64,000 bases of DNA from Acidobacteriaceae bacterium (GTDB lineage Bacteria; Acidobacteriota; Terriglobia; Terriglobales; Acidobacteriaceae). Location of the stretch: NCBI GenBank assembly GCA_030049955.1, contig JASIJX010000177.1, positions 10,670 through 74,669 of the forward strand, in the 5' to 3' direction. Of this stretch, positions 104-20,301 are shown piece after piece. Under the pieces are notes generated by a model. That model searched no databases, was not told the origin of the DNA, and saw only the letters and a list, made by a program, of their open reading frames with translations. Within the stretch, counting starts at the first letter, position 1; every line of letters starts with the position of its first letter. Both the position numbers and the translations under genes were made by a program.

Positions 104-1513
104 TCAGAGTGCGCCGGTTTCAACAATTGCCCGGCCGAGTTGCATAGCAGCTTCCGGCAACGCGTGCACGCATTGCGCTATCATCCGCTCGTATCCGTTT
201 GAGGAGAAGCCTTCGATGCGTAATGAAAGGACTGGCTCGGTGCCCGACTCGCGCACCAGGACAATTCCATCTCCCGTTGCAAAGCGCATTCCATCAATTC
301 GTGTAATGGTCGCATCTGGCATCAAGCCGGCTAAGACGTCACAGGCCATCGCATAGGGCAGCACAGTGGCGGGAATGCGAATCTCCGGCGTGCTGAAGAT
401 GCGCGGCAATGATCGGCGAAGATCTCGCAACTCACCCCGCTTACGAACCTGATCGAGCAGAAAAAGAGCGGCAAACAATCCATCATCGCCGCCATTCAAT
501 TCACTAAAGAAATAATGTCCGCAGGCATCCAGGCCAAGCAACGCGCCCTCGGCGGCCACCCGGCTGCGCATGAATGCATGCCCCGTGCGTTCCAGCAACG
601 GCATTCCTCCGCGTGTGAGAATCGCCCGGCCAACGGCGTCAGAACACTTGATATCCACCACCATTTTCGTGTTCGCGCCGTCTGTCTGCTCGAGCAGAAG
701 AGCGTGCGCAAGCAGAATCGAAATTTCATCTGCGGAGACGAAGCTGCCCTCCTCGTCGACAAAAGCCACGCGATCGCCGTCACCATCCCACGCGATGCCG
801 ATTGCGCCGGCCAGGGCGCGCACCACTTCACGCAAGCGCGAAAGATTCTCTGCACTATTGCAATCCGGCGAGCGATCAGGGAAATTTCCGTCCGGGAGGC
901 ACGAGATGCAATCCACTGAAAAGCCAAGCGTGCGAAACACCGTGGGTGCTATCTCCGACCACGCGCCGTTCCCCGCATCGAGTACCACGCGCATCGGTCC
1001 GCATCCCTGGAAATGCCGCCAGCGTTCCAATATCCAGTGCACATAAGCAGGCCGCGGGTCCATTTTTTCGACGCGCCCGCTCGCGCTCCCCATATCTGCG
1101 CGGAGAGCGCGTGACTCAGCCAGCGCGCGAATCTCCAGCAGCTTTTCCGGTGTCATCGGCGCCGACTGCAACATAAGCTTGAGTCCGTTATCCGCGGGCG
1201 GATTATGCGATGCCGTGACCATCAGCATCGCATCCGCGCGCAGGTGTTGCGCGGCAAAGTAGGCCACGGGCGTTGGGAGCAGGCCCGCATCCAGTACACG
1301 CGCGCCGGCGCGGGCGAGCCCCTCGATGAGTGCGCTTTTCAAATCGGGAGTACTGAGCCTGAAATCCCCACCAGCAACCACCAGCGCTCCCGGCTCAAGC
1401 AGCGTGCCCACAGCGGAGCCGATATCGCAGAATAAGCCGGGAGAAACCAAGTCAGGATACGAGCCGCGAAGGTCGCATGGTTTCCAGGGATCCACTTGAA
1501 GAGCAGTTGTCAT
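104..1513 (-). CDS. Phosphohexomutase (phosphomannomutase/phosphoglucomutase family)
   Basis: A 469-residue alpha-D-phosphohexomutase that should move phosphate between C1 and C6 (or C1 and C5) of a sugar phosphate in the cytoplasm. The active-site serine loop TASHNPP lies near residue 102, the metal-binding loop DGDGDR near residue 245 and the phosphate-binding loop RESGTEPVL near residue 425; the length is normal for the family. Its ATG overlaps the stop of the DUF1045 gene by four bases (ATGA), so the two are translationally coupled. Sequence alone does not separate mannose, glucose or pentose substrates. Its place in a phosphonate-linked operon suggests, as inference only, that it may act on a ribose phosphate made by the C-P lyase route. 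Confidence 0.9.
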   Translation of the reverse strand: MTTALQVDPWKPCDLRGSYPDLVSPGLFCDIGSAVGTLLEPGALVVAGGDFRLSTPDLKSALIEGLARAGARVLDAGLLPTPVAYFAAQHLRADAMLMVTASHNPPADNGLKLMLQSAPMTPEKLLEIRALAESRALRADMGSASGRVEKMDPRPAYVHWILERWRHFQGCGPMRVVLDAGNGAWSEIAPTVFRTLGFSVDCISCLPDGNFPDRSPDCNSAENLSRLREVVRALAGAIGIAWDGDGDRVAFVDEEGSFVSADEISILLAHALLLEQTDGANTKMVVDIKCSDAVGRAILTRGGMPLLERTGHAFMRSRVAAEGALLGLDACGHYFFSELNGGDDGLFAALFLLDQVRKRGELRDLRRSLPRIFSTPEIRIPATVLPYAMACDVLAGLMPDATITRIDGMRFATGDGIVLVRESGTEPVLSLRIEGFSSNGYERMIAQCVHALPEAAMQLGRAIVETGAL

Positions 1514-2223
1514 CGAGACCTCAGGGAGACGCGGTCAATCTCGCGAAATGGAGCCCCGGGCTGCGACTCGTGAAAGATACAAACCGAATCCACAGCCAAT
1601 GGCTGCGGGTTGATTGAAGCGAAGCGTTCGCGCAGGTGCTGTTCGAGCGGTTGCAACGCCTGTGCAGGCAATGATGCGGTGAGCGACATGTGGAACTTCC
1701 ATGTATCAAATACATATGGATAACCCCAGCGAAGAACGTGTTCCCGCTCGCGCGCCGATAGTCCATTGCTCAAACGCCGGTCCAACTCTTCTGCAGTCGA
1801 GCTAGCCCGAAATCTGTCGAATTGGGCGACGCACTCGGCCGCGAGGCGGGCAAACTGCCCGCTTGGTTCCACGAGCGTGAGTGCAAGAAAGTTCCCGAGT
1901 ATTCCTATTGCGAGCGCAGGCGCTTCGAATCCGTTATGTGCCGTCGCAAAATCGCGCAGTGCGGCTTGCAAATCCTCCAACCGCGCGCCCTCGGCCAGGC
2001 GGAACGGCGGCTTGAGCGTTGCATGAAATCCATAACGCCGCGGGCTCTCGGTAACCTCCAGCCAGTGTTCGCGACTCAGATGAGGAGGTAAACCAGGATC
2101 GAGAAATTTTCCGGAGACGGCATCGCGTCCCAGCCACCTGCTTCCCAATTCATGTAGACGGGCTTCGGGAGCCGGAGAAAAATAGATACTGTACCGGGAT
2201 GTGCTTCCATTTCGTTCTGACAT
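1510..2223 (-). CDS. Phosphonate-operon 2H phosphoesterase-like protein (DUF1045)
   Basis: A 237-residue protein of the DUF1045 / TIGR03223 family found in phn operons of other bacteria. Two histidine motifs typical of the 2H phosphoesterase fold are visible: HATLKPPF near residue 65 and HMSLT near residue 175. 2H enzymes usually open cyclic phosphodiesters. The C-P lyase route makes 5-phosphoribosyl 1,2-cyclic phosphate, which E. coli opens with PhnP; PhnP is not in this window, so this protein is a candidate replacement (inference). The reading frame is open further upstream, but I chose the ATG at 2221-2223 because it clears the preceding ABC gene and has AGGA ten bases before it. It overlaps the phosphohexomutase by four bases. 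Confidence 0.82.
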   Translation of the reverse strand: MSERNGSTSRYSIYFSPAPEARLHELGSRWLGRDAVSGKFLDPGLPPHLSREHWLEVTESPRRYGFHATLKPPFRLAEGARLEDLQAALRDFATAHNGFEAPALAIGILGNFLALTLVEPSGQFARLAAECVAQFDRFRASSTAEELDRRLSNGLSAREREHVLRWGYPYVFDTWKFHMSLTASLPAQALQPLEQHLRERFASINPQPLAVDSVCIFHESQPGAPFREIDRVSLRSR

Positions 2224-2245
2224 CGTTGCCGAGTCCTGACTTAAA

Positions 2246-4189
2246 CTATTGCGCATGCTCGTAAGCATAACCGTTTGACGAGGCGCGGCCTGATTGTACG
2301 GCGCCGTTGGGTTCTGGTATTCCCGCAGTCGCCTGCGTCGCATTTTGAAAGCCGAACTGAATCTGAAACAACCGCCAGTACAGGCCGCGTAGTTCCATAA
2401 GCTGCTCGTGATTGCCCGATTCCGCCACTCTGCCTTTGTGCATTACCAGAATGCGGTCCGCGGTGAGCACAGTGGATAGCCGGTGCGCAATGAGGATGGA
2501 CGTCCTGCCGCGCAACAGCCGGCCCATGGCTGCACGGATGCGTGCTTCGGTCTCGAGATCGATATTTGCGGTCGCTTCATCGAGCAGCAGGAAGAGCGGA
2601 TCGTGTGCCAGTGCGCGGGCAAATGCGATCATCTGCTTCTGACCGGTGGAAAGATTATCACCGCGTTCGTGCACCCAGGTCTCGATACCATCGCGCAGAT
2701 GCTCCAGCATCGCATCCAGTCCAATCTCCTGGGCCGCGCGCCGCGCGTCCTCTTCGCCCAGGGTTTCAGAACCGAAGCGAATGTTGTCGAGGATCGTTCC
2801 CTCGCGCACGTACGTGTCCTGCAGCACAACGCCAAACAGCCGGCGCAAGTCAGAGGAATGCATCTCCTGAACATTCACGCCGCCAATGCGAATGACGCCG
2901 CGTTGCGGCCGGTAAAAGCGCAGCAGCAAATTGCTGAGCGTGGTCTTGCCTGCGCCCGTATGGCCGACGATCGCCAGCATCTCGCCTTCCCGGACATGAA
3001 AGCTGATATCGTTCAGCACCCAGCGGCCAGGCTTATAGGCGAACCATACGTTCTCAAACGTGATGGCTGCACCTTCCGGCTTCGCCAGGGCAGATGCAGG
3101 CAGTTCCTCCAGGGCTTCGGTGTCGAGCAGCGCAAACACCTTCTCGGCTGAAACAATGCTCGTTTGCAGAATGCCATATCGTTCGCTGATTTCCTGAATG
3201 GGGCGCAGAAACCGGCTTCCGTATTGCAGGAATGCCACCAGCGTACCGATGGTCAGATGACCGCCACGAAGTAGATACGCACCCACGATAAGCAAACCCG
3301 CCTGCGAGATTGTGCCCAGCAACTCGACAGAAGGCATGAACCACGCGTTGGCCGTCACCCACTCCTTTGACGCCTCCATGTGTTCGCGATTGATTCCGTC
3401 AAAGGTTTCCAGGCTGGGAAGCTGGCGATTGAACAGATGCACCACATAGATGCCATTCACATGTTCGGCGATGAATGCATTGATACGAGCCAGCAAAATA
3501 CGGACCCGTTGTTGGCTCTTCGTGATGATCTGCCGAAAGACGGTTGAAAGAACCAGAAATACCGGGATGACTGCGGCCAGCACCAGCGTTAGATGCGCAT
3601 TCACCCGCAGCATGGCGGCCAGAAAGAAGATAGTCATCACGGCATTGGCCAACAGCGCCACCACTCCGTTGGCGAAGAGATCATTCAGTGCCTCCACGTC
3701 CGTCGTCAGGCGGGTTACCAGCCGTCCTGCAGGAGTCACGTCGTAATAGCTGATAGGCAGCCGATGCAGGTGCTGGAGCAACTGGCGCCTAAGATCTGCC
3801 ATCGCCTTCTGGCCCGTCCATTGCGCCAGAAAATTCTGCGTGCTGTCGATGAGTAGTATGAGCGCGAGCACGCCCAGATATACGAGTGACAACAGTGCGA
3901 GACCGGGAGTGGAGGCCTGTGGCAGCCAAGCCACAAACGCGCCACTTTCGGCGCGATGGCCCAGGAAGTAGACGTCGATAGCGACAGAAATCACCAGCGG
4001 GTTCAGAATCTGCAAAAGCGTGGAAGTAAGCGAGCAGACAAGCGAAGCTGCAACGGCAATCCAATAAGGAACCAGCAGCCGCAAAAGCCGGAGTAGCAGG
4101 TACCAATCACGCACCTGGCCGATGGCTTCGTCGTGAAAGCCGGCTCGTCCGGCATGCCGGAGCGGCTGGCTGATTGCCGGAGCACTCAC
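2246..4189 (-). CDS. ABC exporter half-transporter, BmrD/YheH-like
   Basis: A 647-residue membrane-ATPase fusion: six predicted membrane segments in about residues 30-340 and an ATPase domain after residue 370. Walker A is GHTGAGKTT, Walker B is LFLLLDEATANID with its catalytic glutamate, and the H-loop histidine is in LIAHRLST. The signature motif reads LSTGQ instead of LSGGQ. Together with the aspartate in the Walker B of its partner this is the pattern of heterodimeric exporters such as BmrC/BmrD and TM287/288, in which one ATP site is degenerate. The start overlaps the stop of the partner gene by four bases. Substrate unknown; drugs, lipids or peptides are typical of the family. Confidence 0.88.
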   Translation of the reverse strand: MSAPAISQPLRHAGRAGFHDEAIGQVRDWYLLLRLLRLLVPYWIAVAASLVCSLTSTLLQILNPLVISVAIDVYFLGHRAESGAFVAWLPQASTPGLALLSLVYLGVLALILLIDSTQNFLAQWTGQKAMADLRRQLLQHLHRLPISYYDVTPAGRLVTRLTTDVEALNDLFANGVVALLANAVMTIFFLAAMLRVNAHLTLVLAAVIPVFLVLSTVFRQIITKSQQRVRILLARINAFIAEHVNGIYVVHLFNRQLPSLETFDGINREHMEASKEWVTANAWFMPSVELLGTISQAGLLIVGAYLLRGGHLTIGTLVAFLQYGSRFLRPIQEISERYGILQTSIVSAEKVFALLDTEALEELPASALAKPEGAAITFENVWFAYKPGRWVLNDISFHVREGEMLAIVGHTGAGKTTLSNLLLRFYRPQRGVIRIGGVNVQEMHSSDLRRLFGVVLQDTYVREGTILDNIRFGSETLGEEDARRAAQEIGLDAMLEHLRDGIETWVHERGDNLSTGQKQMIAFARALAHDPLFLLLDEATANIDLETEARIRAAMGRLLRGRTSILIAHRLSTVLTADRILVMHKGRVAESGNHEQLMELRGLYWRLFQIQFGFQNATQATAGIPEPNGAVQSGRASSNGYAYEHAQ

Positions 4190-6178: not shown

Positions 6179-6277
6179 TCAGTTCAGATTCAAAGCGCCT
6201 TCGTCTTCTGATCTCTTGGCATTTTGGCGCAGCCGGGCCGATTCAAACCAACCGGAAATTGGAGCAACTTTCATTCA

Positions 6278-6760
6278 ATGAGCAGCGAATCCATGAACGG
6301 AAGTTCTGGGAACGGGAGTTCCGCCGCCCACGCTATGAGCGCCGCTGGCCCCGATTACACCTTATGTGAGTGCGAGCTGCAGTCGTTGCAGCGGCTGGTC
6401 TCCAGGCTCGAGCAATCGCACACCGTAACCGTGCGCAAGAGTCCTTCCATCTGCCTCACTATGATTCCCGCCGAAGACTCGCTCGAGGGGCAGAAGTTCT
6501 ATTTGGGCGAAGCGCTCACCACCGAGTGTGAAGTGACGGTGGACGGTCTCGATGGATTCGGACTTTGCCTCGGCGATGAGCCGGTGCGGGCATATTCGCT
6601 CGCGGTAGTTGATGCGCTGCTGCACGGAGGCCGTGCCGTCCCGCAGGAAATCGAATCCTTTCTGCGCGAGCACGGCGAGAGAGTTGCGCGTCGCGATCGG
6701 GATGAGTTCGATCTGATCCTCCAGACGCAGGTCGACTTCAAGCTGATGGAGGAAGCATGA
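6278..6760 (+). CDS. phnG: C-P lyase core subunit PhnG
   Basis: A 160-residue homologue of PhnG, part of the PhnGHIJ core complex that couples methylphosphonate-type substrates to ribose 5-triphosphate. The family pattern is clear in the middle: TECEVTVDGLDG near residue 85, followed by the segment that aligns with the conserved helix (RAYSLAVVDALL). The frame is open to a TTG at 6224, but I chose the ATG at 6278, preceded by GGAG, because this gives the family's usual length plus about ten residues. A serine/glycine-rich N-terminal tail (residues 1-25) is not part of the family fold. First gene of the phn operon; it overlaps phnH by four bases. Confidence 0.88.
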   Translation: MSSESMNGSSGNGSSAAHAMSAAGPDYTLCECELQSLQRLVSRLEQSHTVTVRKSPSICLTMIPAEDSLEGQKFYLGEALTTECEVTVDGLDGFGLCLGDEPVRAYSLAVVDALLHGGRAVPQEIESFLREHGERVARRDRDEFDLILQTQVDFKLMEEA

Positions 6761-7380
6761 GCGCACCCGCTGCTGTGGCGCCTTACGATCCGGTATTTGA
6801 CGCGCAGAAACACTACCGCATTTTGCTCGATTGTACCGCGCGTCCCGGCACCATCGGCCAGCTTGACGATGTCGGCCTCGTAATCCCACGGCAGCTCAAC
6901 CGCGCATCGGCATTTCTGGCCCTCACGCTGCTCAGCGCCGATTCCATGTTTTGTCTTGTTGATGGCGAGCAAGACGCGGTGGAGTTCTTCCGCCGCGAAA
7001 CACTCGCCGCGCCGGCAACAGTCGAGAAAGCCGATTTTGTATTTCTCGCCGATCCCTACCGCATTGAGGCGATTGATTGCGCCCGCACAGGTGCACTCGC
7101 CTTTCCGGAGCAGGGCGCGACGGTGATTATGCAAGTGGCGGGACTTTCTCCCGCGCCCATGCCCAACGCGATTCGACTTACCCTCACGGGGCCGGGAATC
7201 GAGACGCAGACTGCAGTATTCGTCTCCGGCGCGACCGAATCTCTCTTTGAGGCGCTGGGCAAACACAATACCGAGTTTCCTCTGGGCATCGATTCTTACC
7301 TGACCTGCGACAGTCTTTCGGCGGGTCCATGCGTGCTGGCTCTGCCTCGCACAACGCGCATTCGCTGCGAGCGTGTTTAG
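6757..7380 (+). CDS. phnH: C-P lyase core subunit PhnH
   Basis: A 207-residue PhnH. The N-terminal YDPVFDAQKHYRILLDCTA and the following ARPGTI segment are characteristic of the family; total length is close to the 194 residues of the E. coli protein. PhnH forms a dimer-like scaffold within the PhnGHIJ core and is essential for C-P cleavage in E. coli though it has no known catalytic residues. The ATG overlaps the phnG stop (ATGA), so the two are coupled, as expected for subunits of one complex. Confidence 0.9.
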   Translation: MSAPAAVAPYDPVFDAQKHYRILLDCTARPGTIGQLDDVGLVIPRQLNRASAFLALTLLSADSMFCLVDGEQDAVEFFRRETLAAPATVEKADFVFLADPYRIEAIDCARTGALAFPEQGATVIMQVAGLSPAPMPNAIRLTLTGPGIETQTAVFVSGATESLFEALGKHNTEFPLGIDSYLTCDSLSAGPCVLALPRTTRIRCERV

Positions 7381-7416: not shown

Positions 7417-8577
7417 ATGGGATACGTAGCGGTCAAGGGCGGACAAGACGCCATTGAAAATGCGAACAAGTTGGTCGATTACTTCCGCTGGAAGGGAAGG
7501 ACCGAACCGATCGGGGTGGACCAGGCACGCACGCAGATGCGTCTCGCCGTGGATCGCGCCATGGGTGAGGGCTCGCTCTACGCTCCTGAGCATGCGGCCC
7601 TGGCACTGCTGCAGGTGGAAGGTGACTCATTCGAGGCGGCATTTCATCTCCGCGCCTATCGCGCCACGCTCGAGCGCCGGTATTTCTCTGAAACTCTCAA
7701 CACGCGCGAAATGTTCGTGCATCGCCGCATCTCATCCACCTTCCGCGAGATTCCCGGAGGCCAGATTCTCGGACCCACCAGAGACTACTCCTTCCGGCTT
7801 CTGAATCCAGCACTGCTCAACGCCAGTCTCGGCTCCATCGAAACATTCATCGAGGGGCTGCGCGAGGAAGTTGATCCGGCCAAGCTGCACGGCATGACGA
7901 CCTATAAGAAAGTCATCGACATCTTCCTCAACGAAGGCCTGATGAGCCGGCAGCCGCGCCCCGATGAAGACCGCCGCGTCTTCGACGTGACACGCGAGGC
8001 AATCAAATTCCCCGTACCACGCTCGGCGGTGCTGCAGATGCTTGCCCGCTCCGAGACCGGCGCGCTGATGTGCATGGCCTACAGCACCATGCGCGGCTTC
8101 GGCGACTCGCATGGCACTGTGGGCGAGCTGCGCGTGGGTGAAGTGCCGGTTCGCATTGTAGACAGGCGCGGCCGCAAGCGCTATGTGGGCAAGATCAAAG
8201 TGACAGAAACCGAGATGGTGGGCGGCGGAAGGCGCCGATCGGCACAGGCCGGCAACCGCAGCGGCGGTGAAGAGCCGGTACTTTCCATCGGCTACGGGTT
8301 GTGCTTCGGCCAGAACGAAACCAAGGGCATCTGCATGGGTATGGTCGAAAGCGCGCTACGCAGTCCCAACCCAGACAACCCCGCCAACAATCAGGAGTTC
8401 GTCCTCTATCACACGGAAGTGATCGAAGCCTACGGCTTCACCAATCACCTCAAATTACCCCACTATGTCACGTTCCAGGCCGGCCTTGAAAGCGCGCGCC
8501 GTGTTGCACGGTTGAAAGAGGCGTCGCGAGAGAGCGTTGCTGTGGGCACTGGCGCCGCGGAGGAAGACAATGATTGA
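7417..8577 (+). CDS. phnI: C-P lyase core subunit PhnI
   Basis: A 386-residue PhnI. In E. coli PhnI, with PhnG, PhnH and PhnL, exchanges the adenine of ATP for the phosphonate to give ribose 1-phosphonate 5-triphosphate. The N-terminus MGYVAVKGGQDAI is typical, and the two metal-binding histidines near the C-terminus are kept in NHLKLPHYVTFQ (about residues 345-356). A glycine- and arginine-rich loop around residues 268-288 and an acidic C-terminal tail make it about 30 residues longer than the E. coli protein. A 36-base gap separates it from phnH; its 3' end overlaps phnJ by eight bases. Confidence 0.92.
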   Translation: MGYVAVKGGQDAIENANKLVDYFRWKGRTEPIGVDQARTQMRLAVDRAMGEGSLYAPEHAALALLQVEGDSFEAAFHLRAYRATLERRYFSETLNTREMFVHRRISSTFREIPGGQILGPTRDYSFRLLNPALLNASLGSIETFIEGLREEVDPAKLHGMTTYKKVIDIFLNEGLMSRQPRPDEDRRVFDVTREAIKFPVPRSAVLQMLARSETGALMCMAYSTMRGFGDSHGTVGELRVGEVPVRIVDRRGRKRYVGKIKVTETEMVGGGRRRSAQAGNRSGGEEPVLSIGYGLCFGQNETKGICMGMVESALRSPNPDNPANNQEFVLYHTEVIEAYGFTNHLKLPHYVTFQAGLESARRVARLKEASRESVAVGTGAAEEDND

Positions 8578-9454
8578 AAATCGGAAATTCCGCGAGAACT
8601 TCAATTACGCGTACATCGACGAGTTCACCAAAAAAGAAATTCGCCGCAAGACCTTGAAGGCCGTCTGTATCCCCGGCTACCAGGTGCCCTACGCGTCGCC
8701 GGAGATGCCGATCTCGCGCGGCTGGGGCACCGGCGGCCTGCACCTTACTTTGTCGGTGGTCGGGCCTAACGACGTGGTCAAGGTCATCGACCAGGGCAGC
8801 GACGCCAGCGTCAACGCCTGCAACCTGCGTCTTTTCATCAAGGAGATGGCCCGCTGCGCAGTCACCTTCGACACAGCTCTCGCCACCATTATTCAAAGCC
8901 GTCACCGGGTTCCTGAAGAGATTCTCACCGAAAAACAGATTTTGGTCTTGCAGGTTCCGCAGCCTGAGCCCCTACGCAGCGTTGAGAGACTCGAGGCCAA
9001 AACACGCATGATGCATGCCGAGGCCGACTACGCGAAAATCTGGGTCACGCTCTATGAGGCTTACGTGCGTAGCGGTACGCTGCGCAATGCCGCCGGGCAT
9101 CCCATCATGGTGAATGGCCGCTACGTCGCCACGCCGTCTCCCATTCCCAGCTGGGACGTGCCCAATCTAAGCATGGCGCGCTGTCTTTATTTGTTTGGCG
9201 CAGGTCGCGAGAAGCGCATCCATTGCATTCCGCCGTTCACGCCGGTCAAGCCGCTCGAATTTGAAGATATCCGCTTCAAGGTCGAAGAATTCGTCGGCGC
9301 CCATTGCTCCGCCTCGGGCCAGGACAAGGCGTTCATGGATCAGATCTACGCCGAAGACTTCAGCCGCTCCTGGGTCATCAACGACAGCAATTTTCTCGAT
9401 AAGGTGCGCCAGGGTCCGCGCCCGCCGCAGCGACTTTTCACGAACCCGGAATAG
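8570..9454 (+). CDS. phnJ: PhnJ-family C-P lyase subunit lacking three of four conserved cysteines
   Basis: A 294-residue PhnJ homologue over its full length. Start: the ATG at 8570 follows GGAGGAAG and overlaps the phnI stop; the longer upstream frame is not needed. In E. coli PhnJ, Cys241, Cys244 and Cys266 hold the 4Fe-4S cluster and Cys272 forms the thiyl radical. Here the same C-terminal segment aligns almost without gaps, but only the first cysteine remains (Cys246, in AHCSASG). The other three positions are Ser249, Ile270 and Leu276 (segment WVINDSNFL, matching E. coli FVCSDTDYC). The radical-site glycine is kept (Gly36 in CIPGYQVP). Five other cysteines occur at 33, 84, 96, 205 and 219. 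Known radical-SAM chemistry looks impossible with this ligand set, so activity may be lost, replaced or supported by other ligands. Confidence 0.9.
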   Translation: MIENRKFRENFNYAYIDEFTKKEIRRKTLKAVCIPGYQVPYASPEMPISRGWGTGGLHLTLSVVGPNDVVKVIDQGSDASVNACNLRLFIKEMARCAVTFDTALATIIQSRHRVPEEILTEKQILVLQVPQPEPLRSVERLEAKTRMMHAEADYAKIWVTLYEAYVRSGTLRNAAGHPIMVNGRYVATPSPIPSWDVPNLSMARCLYLFGAGREKRIHCIPPFTPVKPLEFEDIRFKVEEFVGAHCSASGQDKAFMDQIYAEDFSRSWVINDSNFLDKVRQGPRPPQRLFTNPE

Positions 9455-9464: not shown

Positions 9465-10307
9465 ATGATGGAAGATAACTGGCTGTTGCGCGTTCGCAAT
9501 CTTACCAAGATCTTCGGCGAGATTACGCCTGATGTTTGCGAGCGCACTGGGCCTAAATTCAGTTCGAATATTTGCCCCAAGACCGGCGCCGTTGTCGCAT
9601 GCAGCAACATCAGCTTTGACCTGTATCCAGGCGAAGTGCTCGGCGTAGTGGGCGAAAGCGGTTCGGGTAAAAGCACGCTGGTGCAGATGCTCTATTTCGA
9701 CCAACCAACAACTTCGGGCGAAGCCTGGTTCCGATCAGTGGAGGACGGCGAGACGAACATCTTCGATCTCTCCAACCAAAGAAAGCGTTACATGCGCAAT
9801 CATCTGATGGGCATGGTTTATCAGAATCCGCGTGACGGGCTCAACTTTCGCTTCTCCTCGGGTGGCAATATCGCCGAAAAACTGCTGATGGCCGGCGTCT
9901 TTCACGTGGGCAACATTCGCGTCCGCGCCACCAATCTGCTTAATCACACCGAAGTGCCGGTCAAGCGCATGGATGAGTCGCCGGCGCGCTTCAGCGGCGG
10001 CATGCAGCAGCGAGTGCAGATTTCGAAGGCCATCGCCAACAACCCGCCTCTGCTGCTGCTCGACGAAGTGACCAGTGGCCTCGACGTCTCGGTGCAAGCC
10101 AAGGTTCTGGATCTGATTCGCAGCCTTCAGGAAGAAATGGGCATTTCGATGATCGTCGTCTCGCACGATCTGGGAGTGATTCGCATGCTGACGGATCGCA
10201 CTATGGTGCTCAAGCATGGCCAGATCGTGGAACAGGGTCTCACCGACCAGATTCTGCAGGATCCGCAGCACGGCTACACACAGCTGCTCGTCAGCTCGCT
10301 GCTTTAA
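9465..10307 (+). CDS. phnK: PhnK, ABC-type ATPase of the C-P lyase complex, with cysteine-bearing insert
   Basis: A 280-residue ATPase. Walker A is GESGSGKST (near residue 63), the signature is FSGGMQQR and Walker B is LLLLDEVTSGLD. PhnK docks on PhnJ in the E. coli complex and probably drives a conformational cycle. I start at the ATG at 9465, ten bases after the phnJ stop; the frame extends upstream inside phnJ only by chance. Compared with E. coli PhnK (about 252 residues) there is an extra stretch of roughly 25-30 residues before the first strand pair (about residues 17-45). It contains three cysteines in VCERTG, ICPKTG and VVACS. Two repeats of C-x-x-TG suggest a decayed or unusual metal knuckle (inference). 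Confidence 0.9.
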   Translation: MMEDNWLLRVRNLTKIFGEITPDVCERTGPKFSSNICPKTGAVVACSNISFDLYPGEVLGVVGESGSGKSTLVQMLYFDQPTTSGEAWFRSVEDGETNIFDLSNQRKRYMRNHLMGMVYQNPRDGLNFRFSSGGNIAEKLLMAGVFHVGNIRVRATNLLNHTEVPVKRMDESPARFSGGMQQRVQISKAIANNPPLLLLDEVTSGLDVSVQAKVLDLIRSLQEEMGISMIVVSHDLGVIRMLTDRTMVLKHGQIVEQGLTDQILQDPQHGYTQLLVSSLL

Positions 10308-10336: not shown

Positions 10337-11050
10337 ATGGGAAAGCTGCTGGAAGTCGTCGATCTCGAGAAGCGCTTCGAGATGCATATTCTCAACGAGA
10401 AACAAATCGAGGCGCTTCGCCAGGTTTCCTTCGAGGTGGACGAAGGAGAAATCGTCGGCCTCACCGGCAAAACCGGCTCCGGCAAGTCTACGCTGATGAA
10501 GTGCCTCTACCGCACCTACCGTGCCAATAGCGGCCGCATCCTATATCACGCCGAGGACGCCCGCGCCATCGATTTGGCGAGCGCTTCGGAACACGAAGTG
10601 CTCCGCCTGCGCAAAACGGAGATCACCTACTGCTCGCAGTTTCTGCAGGTCATCCCCCGCGTCCCGGCAATAGATGTGGTCGCTTCTGCGTTGGTTGCGC
10701 GCGGCGCAAGGCTCGACGAGGCGCGGTTGCTCACCCGCGAATGTTTCGAGCGGCTCAGCCTGCCGAAAGAACTTTGGGACGCGTACCCGGCTACATTCAG
10801 CGGCGGTGAGCAGCAACGCGTAAATATCGCCCGCGCCATCATCTCCCGGCCGCGTTTCCTGCTGGTCGATGAGCCCACAGCGTCGCTCGACCTGAAGACC
10901 AAGGACGGTGTGATCGACATGTTGATCGACTTGAAGAATTCGAGCACATCGATCGTCCTGATTACTCACGACGAGCACACGCTCACGCGCATGGCCGACC
11001 GCTCTCTGCATCTCGAGAACGGCCGTCTGAAAGAAGTTGTCTACGCCTAG
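10337..11050 (+). CDS. phnL: PhnL, ABC-type ATPase of the C-P lyase system
   Basis: A 237-residue ATPase close to the family length. Walker A is GKTGSGKST, the signature is FSGGEQQR, Walker B is FLLVDEPTASLD and the switch histidine is in LITHDEHT. PhnL works with PhnI, PhnG and PhnH in the first step and can dock on PhnK in the assembled complex. All ATPase motifs are intact, in contrast to the altered PhnJ. The gene follows phnK after 29 bases, with AAGAGGAACCG as ribosome binding site, and is followed after ten bases by the first phnD-like gene. Confidence 0.9.
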   Translation: MGKLLEVVDLEKRFEMHILNEKQIEALRQVSFEVDEGEIVGLTGKTGSGKSTLMKCLYRTYRANSGRILYHAEDARAIDLASASEHEVLRLRKTEITYCSQFLQVIPRVPAIDVVASALVARGARLDEARLLTRECFERLSLPKELWDAYPATFSGGEQQRVNIARAIISRPRFLLVDEPTASLDLKTKDGVIDMLIDLKNSSTSIVLITHDEHTLTRMADRSLHLENGRLKEVVYA

Positions 11051-11060
11051 CGAGGAGTTT

Positions 11061-11993
11061 ATGCAGCGCCTCTGGTCTCGTCTCGCTCCGCTTTTCGTCG
11101 CGCTCGCGTGCCTTGCAATATCCGGGTGCACGGCGAGCAACGCGAGCACCGGCTGGCCAAAGGTACTGCACTATGCATACTCGCCGCAGGCCGAGCAACT
11201 TCAGGGCGGCATGCTACACACCAACGAGATGCGCCAGTATCTCCAGAGCCAGCTTCATCTCCCTGTGAATCTGGTGCAGGTGGAGCAGTACGCGGCAACT
11301 ATTGAAGCCATGCGCGCCAATAAGCTCGACATCGCGCACTTTGGCGCGCTTGCCTATATCATCGCCGCGCAAAAAGCCGGCGCACAGGCCATTGTCTCCC
11401 GCGGTTATCCGAATGGCCGGATCAGCGGATATCGGTCGCTCATTGCAGTGCCCAGGGACAGCCCCATTCACTCCATCGAAGAACTTAAGGCCCGCGCAAA
11501 GAGTGTTGTCTTTGCCTTTGCCGATCCGGCGTCCACCTCCGGCAATTTGTATCCGCGTGTCGAGTTGCAGAACATGGGCATCGATCCCGAGAAGGATTTC
11601 AACAAGGTGATCTATGCCAACGGGCATCTGGCTGACCTCTTGGCCATCGAGTCGCACAAAGTGGATGCCGGCGCCTTCGATGAAGCCTACATGACACGGC
11701 TCATAGCGCGAGGAAAGATGAAGCCCGGCGACGTCCGTGTCATCTGGGCGTCCAGCCAGATTCCCAGTGAGCCGATCGCAGTCCGCGGCAATCTTCCCGA
11801 GGACCTCAAAAAACAAATTCAGGCGGCATACCTGAACATGCAAAAGCGGAATCCCGCGCTTTGGAATGAGTTGAGCACGAGCGTCTACACAAATTCGCCC
11901 GGCACCACTTACATCCCCGTCACCGACGCAACGTACAACGGCCTTCGTCACTATGCGTTGCAGCTCAAGCAGTTCAATTTTCTAGAGAACTAG
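11061..11993 (+). CDS. phnD: PhnD-like phosphonate/phosphite-binding lipoprotein, copy 1
   Basis: A 310-residue periplasmic binding protein for the PhnCDE importer. A signal peptide ends in the lipobox AISGC (Cys about residue 23), so it is probably anchored in the outer leaflet of the inner membrane. Family landmarks are YAYSPQ at the start of the mature domain, DIAHFGALAYI and FADPASTSG. I chose the ATG at 11061 because it follows a CGAGGAG ribosome binding site; the frame opens 24 bases earlier. It is a close tandem paralogue of the next gene, with the same order of motifs throughout. Confidence 0.88.
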   Translation: MQRLWSRLAPLFVALACLAISGCTASNASTGWPKVLHYAYSPQAEQLQGGMLHTNEMRQYLQSQLHLPVNLVQVEQYAATIEAMRANKLDIAHFGALAYIIAAQKAGAQAIVSRGYPNGRISGYRSLIAVPRDSPIHSIEELKARAKSVVFAFADPASTSGNLYPRVELQNMGIDPEKDFNKVIYANGHLADLLAIESHKVDAGAFDEAYMTRLIARGKMKPGDVRVIWASSQIPSEPIAVRGNLPEDLKKQIQAAYLNMQKRNPALWNELSTSVYTNSPGTTYIPVTDATYNGLRHYALQLKQFNFLEN

Positions 11994-11995
11994 AT

Positions 11996-12955
11996 ATGCG
12001 CGCATCGCTCACTTCCCGCACAGGACGCAATTGGCAGCTCTACCTGTTTCCCATTCTGCTTTCATTGCTCTGCCTGTCGCTCAACGGCTGCAAGCCGGGC
12101 AACGCAAGCGATAGCTGGCCGAAAGTTCTGCGCTATGCGTACTCGCCGCAGATGGAGGAGTTGCAGGGAGGCACCTTCCGCTACGACGAAATGCGCAAAT
12201 ATCTTCAGAGCCAACTGCATATCCCCGTCGAGCTGATACAGGTGGATACATATGCTTCGACCATCGAGGCAATGCGCGCCCAGAAAGTGGATATCGCGAC
12301 CTATGGCGGCTTGAGTTACATCCTTGCCTCACAAAAAGCCGGAGCAGAAGCCATCGTCGCGCGCGGCTTTCCCAATGGCTCCAGGGGCGGATACCGGTCG
12401 GTAATCGCCGTGCCAAAGAATAGCCCGATCCATTCCATGGCCGACCTGAAGGCTCATGCAAAAGATCTGGTTTTTGATTTCGCCGATCCCGCATCCACTT
12501 CCGGCTACCTCTATCCGCGGGTCGGTCTCCAATCGATGGGCATCAATCCTGATACCGATTTCAAAAAGGTGGTTTTCGCCGGCAATCATCTGGCGGCTGC
12601 AATGACGATCGTATCAGGCAAGGTGGATGCAGGCGCATATATGGAGTCGGTGATGATCCGTCTGATCGCCCTACACAAGATGTCGCCGGACTCCGTGCGC
12701 ATCATCTGGCGATCTGAATTGATTCCGAACTCATGCACCACCGTTCGAAAGAATCTTCCCGAAAAATTGAAGCAGCAGATTCAGGCCGCATTAATCTCTC
12801 TGCCTCAAAAAGATCCGGCCCTCTGGGCGAATTACATGCAGACATTTCATACACCATGGAGCGGATCGGTGAATGTCCCGGTGACGGATGCCGATTATGA
12901 CGGCCTGCGCAAATACGCCGCGCAAGTCAAAAACTTCAACTTCGCGGAGAATTGA
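11996..12955 (+). CDS. phnD: PhnD-like phosphonate/phosphite-binding lipoprotein, copy 2
   Basis: A 319-residue tandem duplicate of the preceding gene, starting two bases after its stop. The signal peptide ends in SLNGC (Cys about residue 32). The ligand-binding segments YAYSPQ, DIATYGGLSYI and FADPASTSG match copy 1 but with changes in likely pocket residues (AHFGALAY against ATYGGLSY; GAFDEAYMTR against GAYMESVMIR). This suggests two substrate ranges served by one membrane permease (inference). phnC follows six bases later. Confidence 0.88.
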   Translation: MRASLTSRTGRNWQLYLFPILLSLLCLSLNGCKPGNASDSWPKVLRYAYSPQMEELQGGTFRYDEMRKYLQSQLHIPVELIQVDTYASTIEAMRAQKVDIATYGGLSYILASQKAGAEAIVARGFPNGSRGGYRSVIAVPKNSPIHSMADLKAHAKDLVFDFADPASTSGYLYPRVGLQSMGINPDTDFKKVVFAGNHLAAAMTIVSGKVDAGAYMESVMIRLIALHKMSPDSVRIIWRSELIPNSCTTVRKNLPEKLKQQIQAALISLPQKDPALWANYMQTFHTPWSGSVNVPVTDADYDGLRKYAAQVKNFNFAEN

Positions 12956-12961: not shown

Positions 12962-13813
12962 ATGCTTGAGATATCCAAACTCGTCGTACAACTTCCCAGC
13001 GGCAATCGTTTGGTCGACAACGTTAGTTTCTCCGTCGGCTGCGGTGAGTTCGTGTCGATACTCGGCTCCAGTGGTGCCGGCAAATCCCTCACCCTGCGCT
13101 GCATCGTCGGACTTACCAAGCCAACCTCCGGCGAGATCACGCTCACCGGCCCCGGCAGCCGAACCTATCGCACCACTGAGGTGGGCGCGAAAGAGTTGCG
13201 CCGCGCGCGGCGACACATCGGCCTAATCTTCCAGGGCTCGAATCTGGTCGAGCGGCTCACAGTTCTTGAAAACGTGATGCTGGGCAGGCTCGGCCACATC
13301 CATCCGCTGCGAAGCTGGGTCGTCGGCTTCACTGACTCCGAAGCCCACGAGGCGATGGATGCTCTGGACCGCGTCAAAATGACCTCGTGCGCCGCGCGAC
13401 TTGCCGGCTCGCTCAGCGGTGGCGAAAAGCAGCGCGTCTCGATTGCGCGCGCCATCTATCAGCGACCGCTTATCTACCTCGCCGACGAGCCGATATCCAG
13501 CCTCGACCCACGCAACGCCGAAGCCATCATGTCGATTTTGCTGCCTCTATCGCGCGAAACCCCAGTCATTGGCGCGTTTCATCAGCCGGCGATCGTCGCG
13601 CGCTACTGCACACGTGTCATCGGCATTCGAGCAGGCCAGGTGGTCTACGATGGCGCTGCGCAGCTCTCCTCACGAAAATTGGAGAGCATCTACGGAGACC
13701 ACAACAGCGAATCCGATGTTGCCGCGGCTGATCTAGCTGGACAGCCACCTCTCTTTGAGCCCGCAATGCAACCCGCTTTGCACCAGAGCTTGCATCAGGG
13801 GGTTCACGTCTAG
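12962..13813 (+). CDS. phnC: PhnC, phosphonate importer ATPase
   Basis: A 283-residue ATP-binding subunit of the phosphonate ABC importer. Walker A is GSSGAGKSL, the Q-loop is LIFQGSNL, the signature is LSGGEKQR and Walker B is LIYLADEPISSLD. The Q-loop context LVERLTVLENVMLGRLG is typical of PhnC. The last 35 or so residues are a glutamine- and histidine-rich tail beyond the family domain. The TAG stop overlaps the GTG start of the first phnE gene by one base. Confidence 0.92.
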   Translation: MLEISKLVVQLPSGNRLVDNVSFSVGCGEFVSILGSSGAGKSLTLRCIVGLTKPTSGEITLTGPGSRTYRTTEVGAKELRRARRHIGLIFQGSNLVERLTVLENVMLGRLGHIHPLRSWVVGFTDSEAHEAMDALDRVKMTSCAARLAGSLSGGEKQRVSIARAIYQRPLIYLADEPISSLDPRNAEAIMSILLPLSRETPVIGAFHQPAIVARYCTRVIGIRAGQVVYDGAAQLSSRKLESIYGDHNSESDVAAADLAGQPPLFEPAMQPALHQSLHQGVHV

Positions 13814-14652
13814 TGAGTGCCTCCGGTTCGGCTTCCATGCATCCTCAACCCACGCTCCTTGAATGGAAGCATGGACGCGCAACCCAGCGTCGCAGGCGAA
13901 CAATTGCCGCCCTGCTGATCCTTGTGCTCACGCTTTTTTCGGCATGGCGCTGCGATGTGGACCTGCACACCTTCACCACCGGCATCTTTAAAGGCATTTC
14001 TCTGCTCGGAATGTTTTTTCCGCCCGAGTGGGACAGCCTGCAGGAGATGTGGCAGCCCCTCGCCGTTACCGCTGTGATGGCGCTCATCGCGACCATTCTC
14101 GGCATGTGCCTTTCGCTGCCCTGCGCGCTCGCTGCGTCCACGAATCTCGCGCCTAAGCCGCTTCGTCTGGCCATGCGTTCCTTTATCGCACTTGAGCGCG
14201 GACTTCCAGAGATTGTTCAAATGCTGCTTCTCGTTGCGGTCTTCGGTCTCGGCGCGATCCCCGGCCTCGTTGCGCTTTCTTTCAGCAGCATCGGAATGCT
14301 GGCCAAGCTCCTGGCAGATGCCATCGAAGAGATTGAGCCGCGCATGCTGGAGGCTGTCGCAGCTACCGGCGCCACGCGCTCGCAGATAATTCGCTACGCA
14401 GTAATTCCGCAGATCTTTCCCGCGCTGCTAGCCAATGGATTGTTCCGCTTTGAATTCAACGTGCGCGCAGGGGTAATACTCGGTGCGGTTGGCGCCGGCG
14501 GCATTGGATTCATCATGATGACCGCAATGAACGCGATGAATTACCAGCGCGCCTGCCTGGCCACACTACTTACCCTCGTGCTGGTTTTCATATCCGAGCG
14601 TATCTCCGATTTCTTCCGCGCTCGCATTCTCGGTGAAGGAGTGCTGCGATGA
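13813..14652 (+). CDS. phnE: PhnE, phosphonate importer permease, copy 1
   Basis: A 279-residue inner-membrane permease. The coupling (EAA) loop EAVAATGATRSQIIRYAVIPQ lies near residue 180, followed by the family segment FEFNVRAG. Five to six hydrophobic segments are visible. The likely start is a GTG that overlaps the phnC stop; an ATG at 13837 is a possible alternative. It ends in a four-base overlap with the second permease gene. The pair probably forms a heterodimeric channel served by PhnC. Confidence 0.9.
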   Translation: MSASGSASMHPQPTLLEWKHGRATQRRRRTIAALLILVLTLFSAWRCDVDLHTFTTGIFKGISLLGMFFPPEWDSLQEMWQPLAVTAVMALIATILGMCLSLPCALAASTNLAPKPLRLAMRSFIALERGLPEIVQMLLLVAVFGLGAIPGLVALSFSSIGMLAKLLADAIEEIEPRMLEAVAATGATRSQIIRYAVIPQIFPALLANGLFRFEFNVRAGVILGAVGAGGIGFIMMTAMNAMNYQRACLATLLTLVLVFISERISDFFRARILGEGVLR

Positions 14653-15470
14653 GCACCGGAGTGCAGGCCGCAGTCTTGCCTTCCCGCAAGCTTCGCCTCA
14701 GAGTTTTGTCGCTGGCCGCCGTCTGCGTCCTTCTCTGGCTCCTGTTCGCCTTTCTCGGTATGACTCCAGCCAGCTTTGAGGTGGACTTCCGTTTTGTCGT
14801 GGACCTGCTACAGCAGATGTTGCCGCCTCATCTCTCGCTGCTCTGGACCCAGAAATCGATCTTACTCTCTCTGGTCGATACGCTGGCCATGGCGTTTCTG
14901 GGCACCGTTGTCGGGGGTGCGCTGGCACTGTTGCTGGCCTTCTTTGCAGCCACCAACACCGCACCCCACCGGTTGGTCCGGCTTCTTGCGCGAACCCTGC
15001 TTGTCGCCAACCGCTCCATACCTCATCTGATGGTCGTCCTGGTTCTGCTCATCGCCGTGGGCATCGGACCCTTTGCTGGAGTGCTAACGCTCATCTTCGG
15101 CTCGGTTGGCATGTACGGAAAATTCTTCGCAGACACCATCGAGCAGGCGGACAAGGGAATGCTCGAGTCCGTAGAGAGCGTAGGCGGAACGCGGTTGCAG
15201 ACCATCCGGTTTGCAGTGCTGCCACAAGTGATTCCTTCATTCGTCGCCAATCTCTTTTACGCCTTCGACTATAACCTCCGCGCTGCGATTCCCCTTGGCG
15301 TCTTCGGCGGCGGCGGCATCGGTTTCGAACTGGCCTTTGCCAACGGATTGTTGCACTACAAAGATGTGATGGCCTACACGATTCTCATCATCGTGATGAT
15401 CAGCGGCATGGAACGTATCTCCGACTGGGTTCGCAACAGTATCCTCACGCAACCCACGGTCACCAGATAA
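14649..15470 (+). CDS. phnE: PhnE, phosphonate importer permease, copy 2
   Basis: A 273-residue permease homologous to the preceding gene. The coupling loop is ESVESVGGTRLQTIRFAVLP, followed by FDYNLRAAIPLGVFGGGGIGF, a segment typical of PhnE. The ATG overlaps the stop of copy 1 by four bases, so the two permease subunits are made together. The stop is followed by 29 bases containing GGAGG, which serves phnM. Confidence 0.9.
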   Translation: MSTGVQAAVLPSRKLRLRVLSLAAVCVLLWLLFAFLGMTPASFEVDFRFVVDLLQQMLPPHLSLLWTQKSILLSLVDTLAMAFLGTVVGGALALLLAFFAATNTAPHRLVRLLARTLLVANRSIPHLMVVLVLLIAVGIGPFAGVLTLIFGSVGMYGKFFADTIEQADKGMLESVESVGGTRLQTIRFAVLPQVIPSFVANLFYAFDYNLRAAIPLGVFGGGGIGFELAFANGLLHYKDVMAYTILIIVMISGMERISDWVRNSILTQPTVTR

Positions 15471-15499: not shown

Positions 15500-16708
15500 A
15501 TGACGGAAACGATCCTGACCAACGCGCACATCGTCTGTCCCGACCGGGTGATTGAAGGATCGCTCGTTATCGAGGACGAATGCATTGCCGACATCCTTCC
15601 CCACAATCTTCCGGAAGGTATCGACCTGAAAGGCGCATTTCTCATCCCTGGCATCATCGATATCCACACCGACTACCTGGAGCGCGAGATCGCGCCACGG
15701 CCTTCGGCCAAAATCCCGCTCGAATTGGCTCTCCACGTCATGGACCTGCGCGCCCTCGGTTGCGGGCTCACGACCATCTGCACAGCCGCGCGCATCTCCG
15801 AGGAGCGCGAAGGTCCGGCCGGAACGTGGCGTGGCGACGGCCTGGCGCTGGCCAAAAGTTTTGAGGAGTTGATTCCGCAACTGCGCGCGCATCACTTAAT
15901 CCACATTCGCTGGAGCCCTAATTTCCTGCCTGTGGATCACATCCTCGATGCGCTTTTATCGCTCAGGAGTATCGCGAATCTTGTCTATAACGACGACACC
16001 CCGGGCCAGCGCCAGTTTCGTGACATCGACGCTCAAATTCGGCAGCGGGCAGCGCGGCAGAACATCTCTTATGAGGAAGTGAAACAGAAGATGGACGAGC
16101 GCACGGAACGCGCGCGGATGATCAACAACCGCATGGAAGTGAAGCGCCGCCTCGAGGGGCGCATCGCCATCGGCAGCCACGACGACACCACCATCGAGCA
16201 CGTGATCGAAGCCTACGAAACCGGCGCCACGCTCTCTGAGATGCCATGCACCATAGAAGCCGCGCGCAAAGCCAAGGCACTTGGCATGATGGTCTGCATG
16301 GGCGCACCCAATTATTACCGCGGTGGTTCGCATTGCGGCAATCTGGCCTGTCATGACGCTATGGCCGAAAACCTAGTCGACATCATCTGCAGCGACTATC
16401 ACTTTCCGTCCATGTTGGCCTGTGCTCTTCGCATGGCTGAGGAGGGCATGCCGCTGCATGATGCCATTCGCCTCTTTACAATCAACCCGGCTCGCCACCT
16501 GGGTATCGATGGCAGCACAGGCAGTATCGTCATCGGAAAGCAGGCCGACCTTGTTGCTTTCCATGCCTACCAGGGATATGGCGACGTTGCCCGGGCCTGG
16601 GTGGCAGGCAGGGAGCGCTTCGCATCGGTCCTCGACAGTCGTGAATACAGGCCGGACTTCACCGAAGACGAACGGCTCGTCAACGCCGATGCAGTCTCCT
16701 CCGATTGA
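15500..16708 (+). CDS. phnM: PhnM, ribose 1-phosphonate 5-triphosphate diphosphatase
   Basis: A 402-residue amidohydrolase-superfamily enzyme that removes diphosphate from alpha-D-ribose 1-methylphosphonate 5-triphosphate before PhnJ acts. Metal-site motifs are intact: HTDYLE near residue 55, GSHDDTTIEHV near residue 225 and CSDYHFPS near residue 295. Length matches the family. The start follows a perfect GGAGG. Its stop (TGA) shares a base with the ATG of the next gene, the ABC exporter, which ties that exporter into the phn transcript. Intact PhnM implies the substrate of PhnJ is still made. Confidence 0.92.
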   Translation: MTETILTNAHIVCPDRVIEGSLVIEDECIADILPHNLPEGIDLKGAFLIPGIIDIHTDYLEREIAPRPSAKIPLELALHVMDLRALGCGLTTICTAARISEEREGPAGTWRGDGLALAKSFEELIPQLRAHHLIHIRWSPNFLPVDHILDALLSLRSIANLVYNDDTPGQRQFRDIDAQIRQRAARQNISYEEVKQKMDERTERARMINNRMEVKRRLEGRIAIGSHDDTTIEHVIEAYETGATLSEMPCTIEAARKAKALGMMVCMGAPNYYRGGSHCGNLACHDAMAENLVDIICSDYHFPSMLACALRMAEEGMPLHDAIRLFTINPARHLGIDGSTGSIVIGKQADLVAFHAYQGYGDVARAWVAGRERFASVLDSREYRPDFTEDERLVNADAVSSD

Positions 16709-19449: not shown

Positions 19450-19640
19450 TCAGGCGATGGCCTTAACCTCAGCCAGCCTGTTCATCTGCATGTAGCGCTT
19501 CGTGCCCCACTTAGTTCGCCGCGATATGGCGCAGTCTGGCAGCGACTAGCATCAGGGCCGAGTGGCCATCAGGGAAGGCGCCTACCACGCGCGTTCGTCG
19601 TCGAATCTCGCGCATCAGCCTCTCCAACGGGTTATTGGTT
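19450..19640 (-). pseudogene. IS256-family transposase, C-terminal fragment
   Basis: Reading the minus strand gives NPLERLMREIRRRTRVVGAF, then PDGHSALMLVAARLRHIA, the conserved C-terminus of IS256-family (mutator-type) transposases. After a stop and one-base shift the expected end TKRYMQMNRLAE follows. Only about 60 codons remain; the catalytic DDE core is gone. The fragment abuts an IS3 fragment directly, showing one element was disrupted by another. Confidence 0.8.
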
Positions 19641-19644
19641 CTGA

Positions 19645-20160
19645 GACATCAGTCAAGGTGATCGAAGCGCTGGCTGACGTCATCGTCGAGCGCGGCGTGC
19701 CGGAACATCTGCGTTCAGACAACGGGCCGGAGTTCGTGGCCAAAGACCTGCGCCAGTGGCTGGTCAACACTGGCGCCAATACGCTTTACATCGAACCCGG
19801 CTCCCCGTGGGAGACCGGCTACTGCGAATCGTTCAACAGCAAGCTGAGGGATGATTTCCTGAAGGGCGAAATCTTTTACTCGATCAAGGAACTGCGCGTG
19901 CTGGCTGGATGCTGGCGCATCTACTACAACACCATCAGGCCACACTCGTCGCTGGGCTACAAACCGCCCGCGCCAGAAGCATGGCAGACCGAAGCATCTC
20001 CAGGGCATGGAAAACTGGAAAGCACCAAACGCTTCCCACTTTTCCACGCCCGCCGACGACGGCTATCTGAACTCAGCGATACCTGCGCTAAACTAACTCT
20101 TCGCTGGCACAAAACATCGGGCAGGCCAGCATTCCAGCTCAAGAAAAGGGGGCTCTCAAG
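19645..20160 (+). pseudogene. IS3-family transposase OrfB, C-terminal fragment
   Basis: The plus strand encodes the end of an IS3-type integrase domain: RSDNGPEFVAKDLRQW carries the second catalytic aspartate and GYCESFNSKLRDDFL the glutamate, followed by YNTIRPHSSLGYKPPAPEAW, the usual C-terminal signature. The N-terminal half with the first aspartate is missing, cut at the junction with the IS256 fragment. The right side runs into a truncated transporter gene, so the element inserted into or deleted through that gene. Confidence 0.85.
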
Positions 20161-20169
20161 AGAGGCGCC

Positions 20170-20301
20170 TAATGCAAACGCGTGGCAGATGAATGGACCT
20201 GCGCCGGTGATAATGGCGATGTCGAATCCAAAAAGGAGGCCTCCCAAGGCTGCGGTGCACGCCAAGAAGATAAGGTAACAAGAGTGGATTTGATTGGTCA
20301 C
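20170..20301 (-). pseudogene. MFS sugar transporter, N-terminal fragment
   Basis: The first 40 or so codons of a sugar-porter MFS protein: a hydrophobic first helix with LGGLLFGFDIAIITGAGPFI, the classic sugar-porter start. After that the frame runs into IS3 sequence. The start is a GTG at 20299-20301. Together with the decayed oxidoreductase just upstream it indicates a lost metabolic cluster. Confidence 0.7.

Follow-up and report, generated by a model that had tools for sequence, protein, structure and literature searches.

Can a carbon-phosphorus (C-P) lyase lose the cysteines of its iron-sulfur cluster and retain the rest of its machinery? The question is raised by a phnJ gene in a stretch of 64,000 nucleotides from an Acidobacteriaceae bacterium (assembly GCA_030049955.1, contig JASIJX010000177.1), the whole of which is called the window here. 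C-P lyase cleaves a very stable bond, a reaction that is a source of methane in oxic waters, and its mechanism is unsettled. A widespread natural lineage in which the active-site pocket is kept but the cluster cysteines are gone amounts to an experiment done by evolution: either the cluster is dispensable for C-P cleavage, or a new reaction takes place under the PhnJ name.

Loss of Three Cluster Cysteines

The gene and its altered segment are placed as follows.

8570..9454, + strand: phnJ lacking cluster cysteines (termed Cys-less here); open frame of 294 amino acids (aa), assigned by PF06007, residue alignment and codons
9302..9451, + strand: C-terminal part of PhnJ, residues 245-294, the former four-cysteine metal knuckle, described from column conservation and a structure model

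The window protein has the PhnJ fold of family PF06007, matching the Pfam model with 388.3 bits (cut-off 25) over residues 10-280. The residue correspondence comes from an alignment with E. coli PhnJ (chain D of PDB 4xb6) that covers residues 10-276. Gly36 in the motif IPGYQVP is the counterpart of the E. coli radical glycine, Gly32. Among E. coli cysteines 241, 244, 266 and 272, only the first is kept, as Cys246 (codon TGC at 9305); the positions of Cys244, Cys266 and Cys272 are occupied by Ser249 (TCG at 9314), Ile270 (ATC at 9377) and Leu276 (CTC at 9395), and there is no cysteine at all downstream of Cys246. The protein thus lacks the four-cysteine set of the E. coli radical S-adenosylmethionine (SAM) C-P lyase. 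A first, sequence-only reading of this DNA had claimed the loss of three cysteines with retention of Gly36 and the first cysteine, and both the E. coli alignment and the codons bear this out. Residues 245-294 are now poor in metal ligands and contain the conserved stretches NDSNFLDK, RPPQ and NP; a structure model of this part has strands at 256-260 and 266-270 and a helix at 275-280. NCBIfam yielded no family for the window PhnJ, the window PhnI or a Chloroflexota PhnJ (L004), a result that is neutral either way.

Sequencing error or frameshift is ruled out as an explanation, given the same state in three acidobacterial metagenome-assembled genomes (MAGs) and in the best 120 listed homologs (119 of 120 at residue 244). 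In the following, residues are numbered as in E. coli, except for C33, C84, C96, C205, C219 and C246 of the window PhnJ.

Distribution and Origin

A clade sharing the loss, which the sequence-only reading had proposed to look for, does exist. Three homolog sets, each the best 120 listed from several thousand scored, were centered on the window protein, on the Chloroflexota protein L004 and on a protein from Nitratireductor, most of whose named relatives belong to Devosia; with the window query they comprise 361 proteins. Cys266 and Cys272 are missing in all 361, and Cys244 is present in one. The sole partial case encountered, P0059, has cysteine at 241 and 244 only. In the window set (query plus best 120 of 7999), cysteine is absent at 266 and 272 in 121/121 and at 244 in 120/121, and Cys241 is kept in 121/121. 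Positions 244, 266 and 272 are all non-cysteine in 120/120 of the L004 set, where Cys241 is replaced in 19/120. All three cysteines are likewise missing in 120/120 of the Nitratireductor set; the Cys272 column of this alphaproteobacterial set falls one residue apart in two alignments, with no cysteine there in representatives. Gly32 is present in every sequence of the three sets that covers it, two of the 121 in the first set not reaching this residue.

The nearest named relatives are three Acidobacteriaceae MAGs (L001-L003) with PhnJ proteins 88-92% identical to the window protein and the same residue losses. Cultured strains also carry a Cys-less PhnJ, namely Thermus thermophilus HB8 (plasmid pVV8), Haematobacter, Microvirga and Nitratireductor. 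A passage of PMC5529391, citing Ohtani et al. 2012, describes pVV8 as enriched in phosphonate genes. Five of 16 plasmid PhnJ proteins are Cys-less (two from Thermus thermophilus and one each from Haematobacter, Microvirga and Nitratireductor), a proportion that is no estimate of frequency, as the 16 were hand-picked from 227 places for spread and similarity. In genome counts that each include the genome on which the search was centered, PhnJ occurs in 37 of 400 Chloroflexota (12 Cys-less, 25 canonical), in 15 of 396 Actinomycetota (15/15 canonical) and in one of 396 Acidobacteriota. Because this sole acidobacterial genome is the center itself, G001, the Cys-less trait is rare in Acidobacteriota. 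Overall, the trait spans four phyla and occurs in Acidobacteriota, many Chloroflexota, some Thermus and some Devosia-like alphaproteobacteria.

Some genomes hold more than one phnJ. Microvirga sp. VF16 has a Cys-less and a canonical PhnJ on two separate plasmids (L067, L079), and genome G687 has two divergent canonical C-P lyase operons (C2:183351-196995; L041, L042) with phnJ genes ~12 kb apart.

An 85-row PhnJ tree, built on the columns before position 236 and omitting repeats and near-copies (L007-L010, L041, L043, L044, L049-L060), contains 45 Cys-less rows. These fall into clade A, Acidobacteriota including the window (16 rows; Shimodaira-Hasegawa-like approximate likelihood ratio test, SH-aLRT, 100), and clade B, comprising Chloroflexota, Thermus and alphaproteobacteria (29 rows; SH-aLRT 98). 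A six-subunit tree of 33 loci recovers both clades with support of 100 each. The unconstrained trees need two state changes. Two separate losses were nonetheless set aside as an established history, since a single Cys-less group is not rejected: the constraint uniting all Cys-less rows passes the approximately unbiased test, with p-AU values of 0.52 for PhnJ and 0.53 for the six-subunit set, in which the PhnK N-terminal columns were also masked. Either one or two origins are possible, and the trait would be old enough to have reached four phyla or would have been transferred among them. Several Cys-less copies are plasmid-borne.

A Kept Pocket in a Kept Operon

Passages of PMC9947105 describe, for the E. 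coli complex, cluster cysteines lying ~30 Å from Gly32 and a zinc site on PhnI His328 and His333 at the PhnI-PhnJ interface, presented as a second putative active site. His219 joins the zinc site in the open state, PhnJ His108 contacts the ligand and loop 37-49 lines the pocket, while the two zinc-ligand histidines of PhnI are required for growth on phosphonate (PMC9947105, same passages).

All of these single residues persist in the Cys-less operons. All 16 Cys-less loci, the window among them, conserve PhnI His219, His328 and His333 and PhnJ Gly32, Arg107, His108 and Arg109. In the window PhnI, the counterparts of His328 and His333 lie in the motif NHLKLPHY, with their codons at 8446 and 8461, and that of His219 is present too. 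The PhnJ pocket loop is mostly conserved in the Cys-less loci, with small group differences such as Phe37 to Tyr in 15/16. Because the PhnI and PhnJ pocket residues are present in 16/16, the loss of the metal knuckle is selective and leaves the pocket intact.

The operon is retained as well. Each of the six genes from phnG to phnL has a match in all 33 loci that were compared (16 Cys-less), although the matches for phnK of L080 (146 aa) and phnI of the canonical L048 (181 aa) are short; phnM was found in 31, missing from L002, where the contig ends, and from the canonical L083. Short false PhnK matches, from a profile that contained a fused Actinoplanes PhnJ-PhnK, were removed before counting. 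That fusion, one frame of 760 aa, lies at 9482-11764 of L005. At 9877-10702 of L080 (from Nitratireductor sp. OM-1), the interval from phnJ to phnL has no PhnK gene in the gene table, which is incomplete; phnK may be broken there. In agreement with the sequence-only reading, the motifs inspected in the neighbors of the window phnJ are kept, namely the ATP-binding cassette (ABC) motifs of PhnK and PhnL, HTD and SHDD of PhnM and the HLKLPHY histidines of PhnI.

Among the four acidobacterial phnJ sequences, the ratio of nonsynonymous to synonymous rates (dN/dS) is 0.02-0.04 in the body of the gene and 0.05-0.13 in the C-terminal part (five of six pairs, the sixth being dS-saturated). These genes are under strong purifying selection. 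Decay is ruled out by these ratios and by conservation across the clade, and the earlier judgment that this is not simple decay holds, given the shared clade, the complete operon, dN/dS of about 0.02-0.13 among the four sequences and the single phnJ in the drafts of three close relatives.

A canonical phnJ serving as backup was also considered and rejected, none being present in G001-G004 or in the 12 Cys-less Chloroflexota genomes (G004 is in both groups). The search for a second canonical copy that the sequence-only reading had proposed thus came up empty in the draft genomes of three close relatives. In total, none of 15 Cys-less draft genomes (3 acidobacterial, 12 Chloroflexota; completeness not given) has a second phnJ, each encoding one PhnJ.

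Proposed Cleavage without a PhnJ-bound Cluster

Judging from the residues present, the accepted radical mechanism cannot operate as written in the Cys-less operons. We tentatively favor a working C-P lyase lineage, in which ribosyl-phosphonates may well undergo C-P cleavage at the histidine/glycine site without a cluster bound to PhnJ. By analogy with the pathway established in E. coli, the ribose triphosphate phosphonate would be the product of PhnI acting with PhnG, PhnH and PhnL, and PhnM would trim it. The ribosyl-phosphonate would then be processed in the PhnI-PhnJ pocket formed by PhnI His328, His333 and His219 and by PhnJ Gly32, His108 and most of the loop, and the kept residues and motifs suggest that PhnK and PhnL would open and close this pocket. 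The C-terminal four-cysteine knuckle of PhnJ has been replaced by a ligand-poor version that is probably free of metal. Because the knuckle is now ligand-poor, phosphate release as a cyclic ribose phosphate would proceed with no 4Fe-4S cluster at the PhnJ site and would need no Cys272 thiyl radical. C-P cleavage itself would presumably continue.

PhnK has a comparable motif. Of the 14 canonical loci from outside Proteobacteria, 12 have an insert with CxxC...CxxC ahead of Walker A, for example in Chloroflexota and haloarchaea. The insert is also present at the four clade-A loci, but its motif there is CxxT...CxxT or has still fewer cysteines, down to none in L002. In clade B, the 11 readable loci of 12 have no insert. 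That ribbon-like motifs were lost from both PhnJ and PhnK in clade A would be in keeping with a change to knuckles free of metal.

Several observations weigh against a working cluster-free C-P lyase. The kept pocket and operon are compatible equally well with a changed reaction. The cysteines of the PhnK insert do not track those of PhnJ overall: the insert is absent in E. coli, Sinorhizobium and Acidovorax, and two Actinomycetota with canonical PhnJ have an insert without CxxC. The presence of both PhnJ types in Microvirga sp. VF16 allows a division of labor. No phnN or phnP gene was labeled in Cys-less loci by comparison with E. coli, and the incomplete gene tables of the Thermus and Nitratireductor stretches list neither. 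The PhnP family cut-off was reached in none of 13 Cys-less genomes, with a sub-threshold match in 12; a match in 11 of 14 control genomes makes such weak PhnP matches uninformative. Kamat et al. (2011, 2013) reportedly found direct roles for the cluster, Cys272 and Gly32. No biochemical work on a Cys-less complex was found. The E. coli reaction is given as a SAM-dependent glycine-radical mechanism in passages of PMC9947105, and those of PMC11978286 check the four cysteines in that study's own PhnJ and term them conserved. A search of open-licence literature, covering titles, the openings of abstracts and selected passages, found no report of a Cys-less PhnJ; subscription papers lay outside the search and may contain an earlier mention.

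An extension of the favored reading to all C-P lyases appears unlikely, though conceivable: the PhnI-PhnJ histidine/glycine pocket would be the true center throughout, the four cysteines would form a structural knuckle or play an auxiliary role, and the operons described here would have no PhnJ cluster. If this were true, the puzzle of the 30 Å distance would dissolve. For now, the Cys-less lineage is to be treated separately when phnJ counts serve as a proxy for methane sources.

Alternative Explanations

A second possibility, plausible though we would not lean toward it, is changed chemistry: the complex would make the ribosyl adduct and then cleave it at the histidine site, using a metal or acid-base catalysis, with no radical C-P cleavage. 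Substrates could belong to a special class, for instance P-O or P-N compounds or phosphonates that are activated. This is the simplest explanation provided that the E. coli radical-SAM model is correct, as the cluster ligands and the thiyl cysteine are lost and the pocket is kept. The extra conserved genes of clade A, a phosphomannomutase-like gene and two MsbA-like exporters, could suit another substrate. However, the surroundings consist of ordinary phosphonate genes (phnCDE, phnM and TIGR03223, with TIGR03308 in relatives), and a non-radical enzyme would not need the Gly32 that is universal, where covered, in the three homolog sets.

That same glycine would be explained if a radical came from elsewhere, either through a separate activase acting on Gly32 or through a cluster on another subunit combined with another thiyl residue, a proposal that we regard as improbable. 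PhnI Cys326 of clade B exemplifies a thiyl substitute: 11 of the 12 loci of clade B have a cysteine here, two residues ahead of His328, the zinc ligand. However, the residue is Thr in clade A and Ala in Thermus, and the cysteine is absent from the four clade-A and 17 canonical loci. Cysteine immediately follows Gly32 in 120/120 of the alphaproteobacterial set (best 120), but not in Microvirga (PGYQVP), and no new PhnJ cysteine column reaches at least 80% in all three sets (best 120 each). An adjacent radical-SAM gene was sought with the crude pattern CX3CX2C, and none was recognized in called genes longer than 120 aa at 12 Cys-less loci (24 kb of the window); in unfiltered frames of four further Cys-less loci there was one match, in an uncharacterized frame of L082. 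An activase encoded farther away may exist. Among a working cluster-free lyase, changed chemistry and a radical from another protein, sequence alone cannot choose; of the outcomes raised in the sequence-only reading, the chemistry may differ, C-P bonds may be cut with no PhnJ cluster, or the C-P bond may stay intact.

Very improbable is a relocated metal site in clade A, with C84, C96, C205 and C246 holding the cluster elsewhere in PhnJ. The near-invariance of these residues speaks for it (121, 119, 118 and 121 of 121, respectively, in the query plus best 120). In the structure model, however, C84 is the fourth residue of a helix at 81-94 and C96 lies two residues beyond its end, so that helix geometry should separate them by some 15-18 Å. 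With C84 and C96 placed toward the two ends of a single predicted helix, all four cysteines are unlikely to surround one cluster. The canonical C84 and C96 columns contain mostly Val or Ala; in clade B, Ala stands at both of these positions and mostly His at that of C205. A metal site built from at most three of the four may exist. The five additional cysteines invoked in the sequence-only reading are indeed present (C33, C84, C96, C205, C219), and only within the acidobacterial clade are three of them (C84, C96, C205) nearly invariant; their use as general substitute ligands is not supported, given their absence from clade B and the placement of C84 and C96 at opposite ends of a predicted helix.

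Position 201 of PhnJ, the site of C205, is Cys in 118/121 of clade A, His in 226/240 of clade B and Thr or Ala in 29/40 canonical rows. It is possible that this is a new ligand or catalytic residue. The 40 canonical rows were picked for their four cysteines, which are therefore 100% conserved by construction.

A non-catalytic PhnJ in a complex serving as relic, scaffold or regulator can hardly be right: loss of catalytic cysteines is typical of pseudo-enzymes, but the four acidobacterial sequences are under strong purifying selection, the pocket residues are invariant, the operon is retained in four phyla and the 15 drafts have no second phnJ to regulate.

Neighboring Genes in the Window

The genes around phnJ are as follows.

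104..1513, - strand: phosphomannomutase-like enzyme (PF02878-PF02880, PF00408); similar open reading frames (ORFs) in 3 other loci
1510..2343, - strand: DUF1045/TIGR03223 protein, 2H phosphoesterase type (PF06299, 182 bits; TIGR03223, 254 bits, cut-off 249)
6224..6760, + strand: phnG (PF06754, 74.6 bits)
6757..7380, + strand: phnH (PF05845, 131 bits)
7417..8577, + strand: phnI (PF05861, 401.6 bits)
9465..10307, + strand: phnK, ABC ATPase with intact Walker A and signature; start codon chosen by inspection
9528..9605, + strand: PhnK insert ahead of Walker A, decayed ribbon motif CxxT...CxxT...C
10337..11050, + strand: phnL, ABC ATPase; motifs intact
11037..11993, + strand: phnD-type phosphonate-binding protein 1 (PF12974, 204.6 bits)
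11996..12955, + strand: phnD-type phosphonate-binding protein 2 (PF12974, 199 bits)
12962..13813, + strand: phnC, importer ATPase (phmmer to E. coli PhnC, 155 bits)
13813..14652, + strand: putative phnE-like permease 1, named from its position after phnC and similar ORFs at 15 other loci
14649..15470, + strand: putative phnE-like permease 2, named on the same basis
15500..16708, + strand: phnM, amidohydrolase; HTD and SHDD motifs kept

Uptake genes and the DUF1045 gene adjoin the Cys-less operon, and the DUF1045/TIGR03223 protein is a candidate for the PhnP step. The phnD-type genes form a tandem pair (11037-12955), with a single copy at the same place in L001 and L003. Divergent from the phn operon, the block at 104-6006 contains the phosphomannomutase-like gene, the DUF1045 gene and two MsbA-like ABC exporters; its order is identical in L001-L003, with Pfam assignments covering the window and L001. 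Directly 3' of phnM lies a third ABC exporter of the MsbA-like kind (16705-18732), which was not seen there in L001 or L003. An ORF at 19562-20278 resembles, by eye, the C-terminal half of an IS3-type transposase.

Comparison with Known Systems

The closest reference is the E. coli C-P lyase (PDB 4xb6, 7z15-7z19), whose PhnJ is of the four-cysteine radical-SAM type; the window PhnJ differs in lacking Cys244, Cys266 and Cys272. Clade B, for which the literature searched yielded no name, resembles the window in the loss of the three cysteines and in keeping Gly32 and the operon core. Its PhnJ is about 50% identical to the window protein and has a different C-terminal tail; it also differs from the window in having no PhnK insert (11 of 12 loci, those readable) and in the cysteine at PhnI 326 (11/12).

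Glycyl radical enzymes of the pyruvate formate-lyase type have separate activases and a conserved glycine bearing a stable radical. PhnJ is like them in having a conserved glycine proposed to carry a radical, and unlike them in fold; moreover, a crude motif search recognized no activase beside the Cys-less operons. Zinc-ribbon ribosomal proteins occur as pairs with and without cysteines, in which a knuckle of the ribbon type gives way to one that binds no metal and the complex works. The metal is structural in those pairs, whereas the PhnJ cysteines have been assigned to catalysis.

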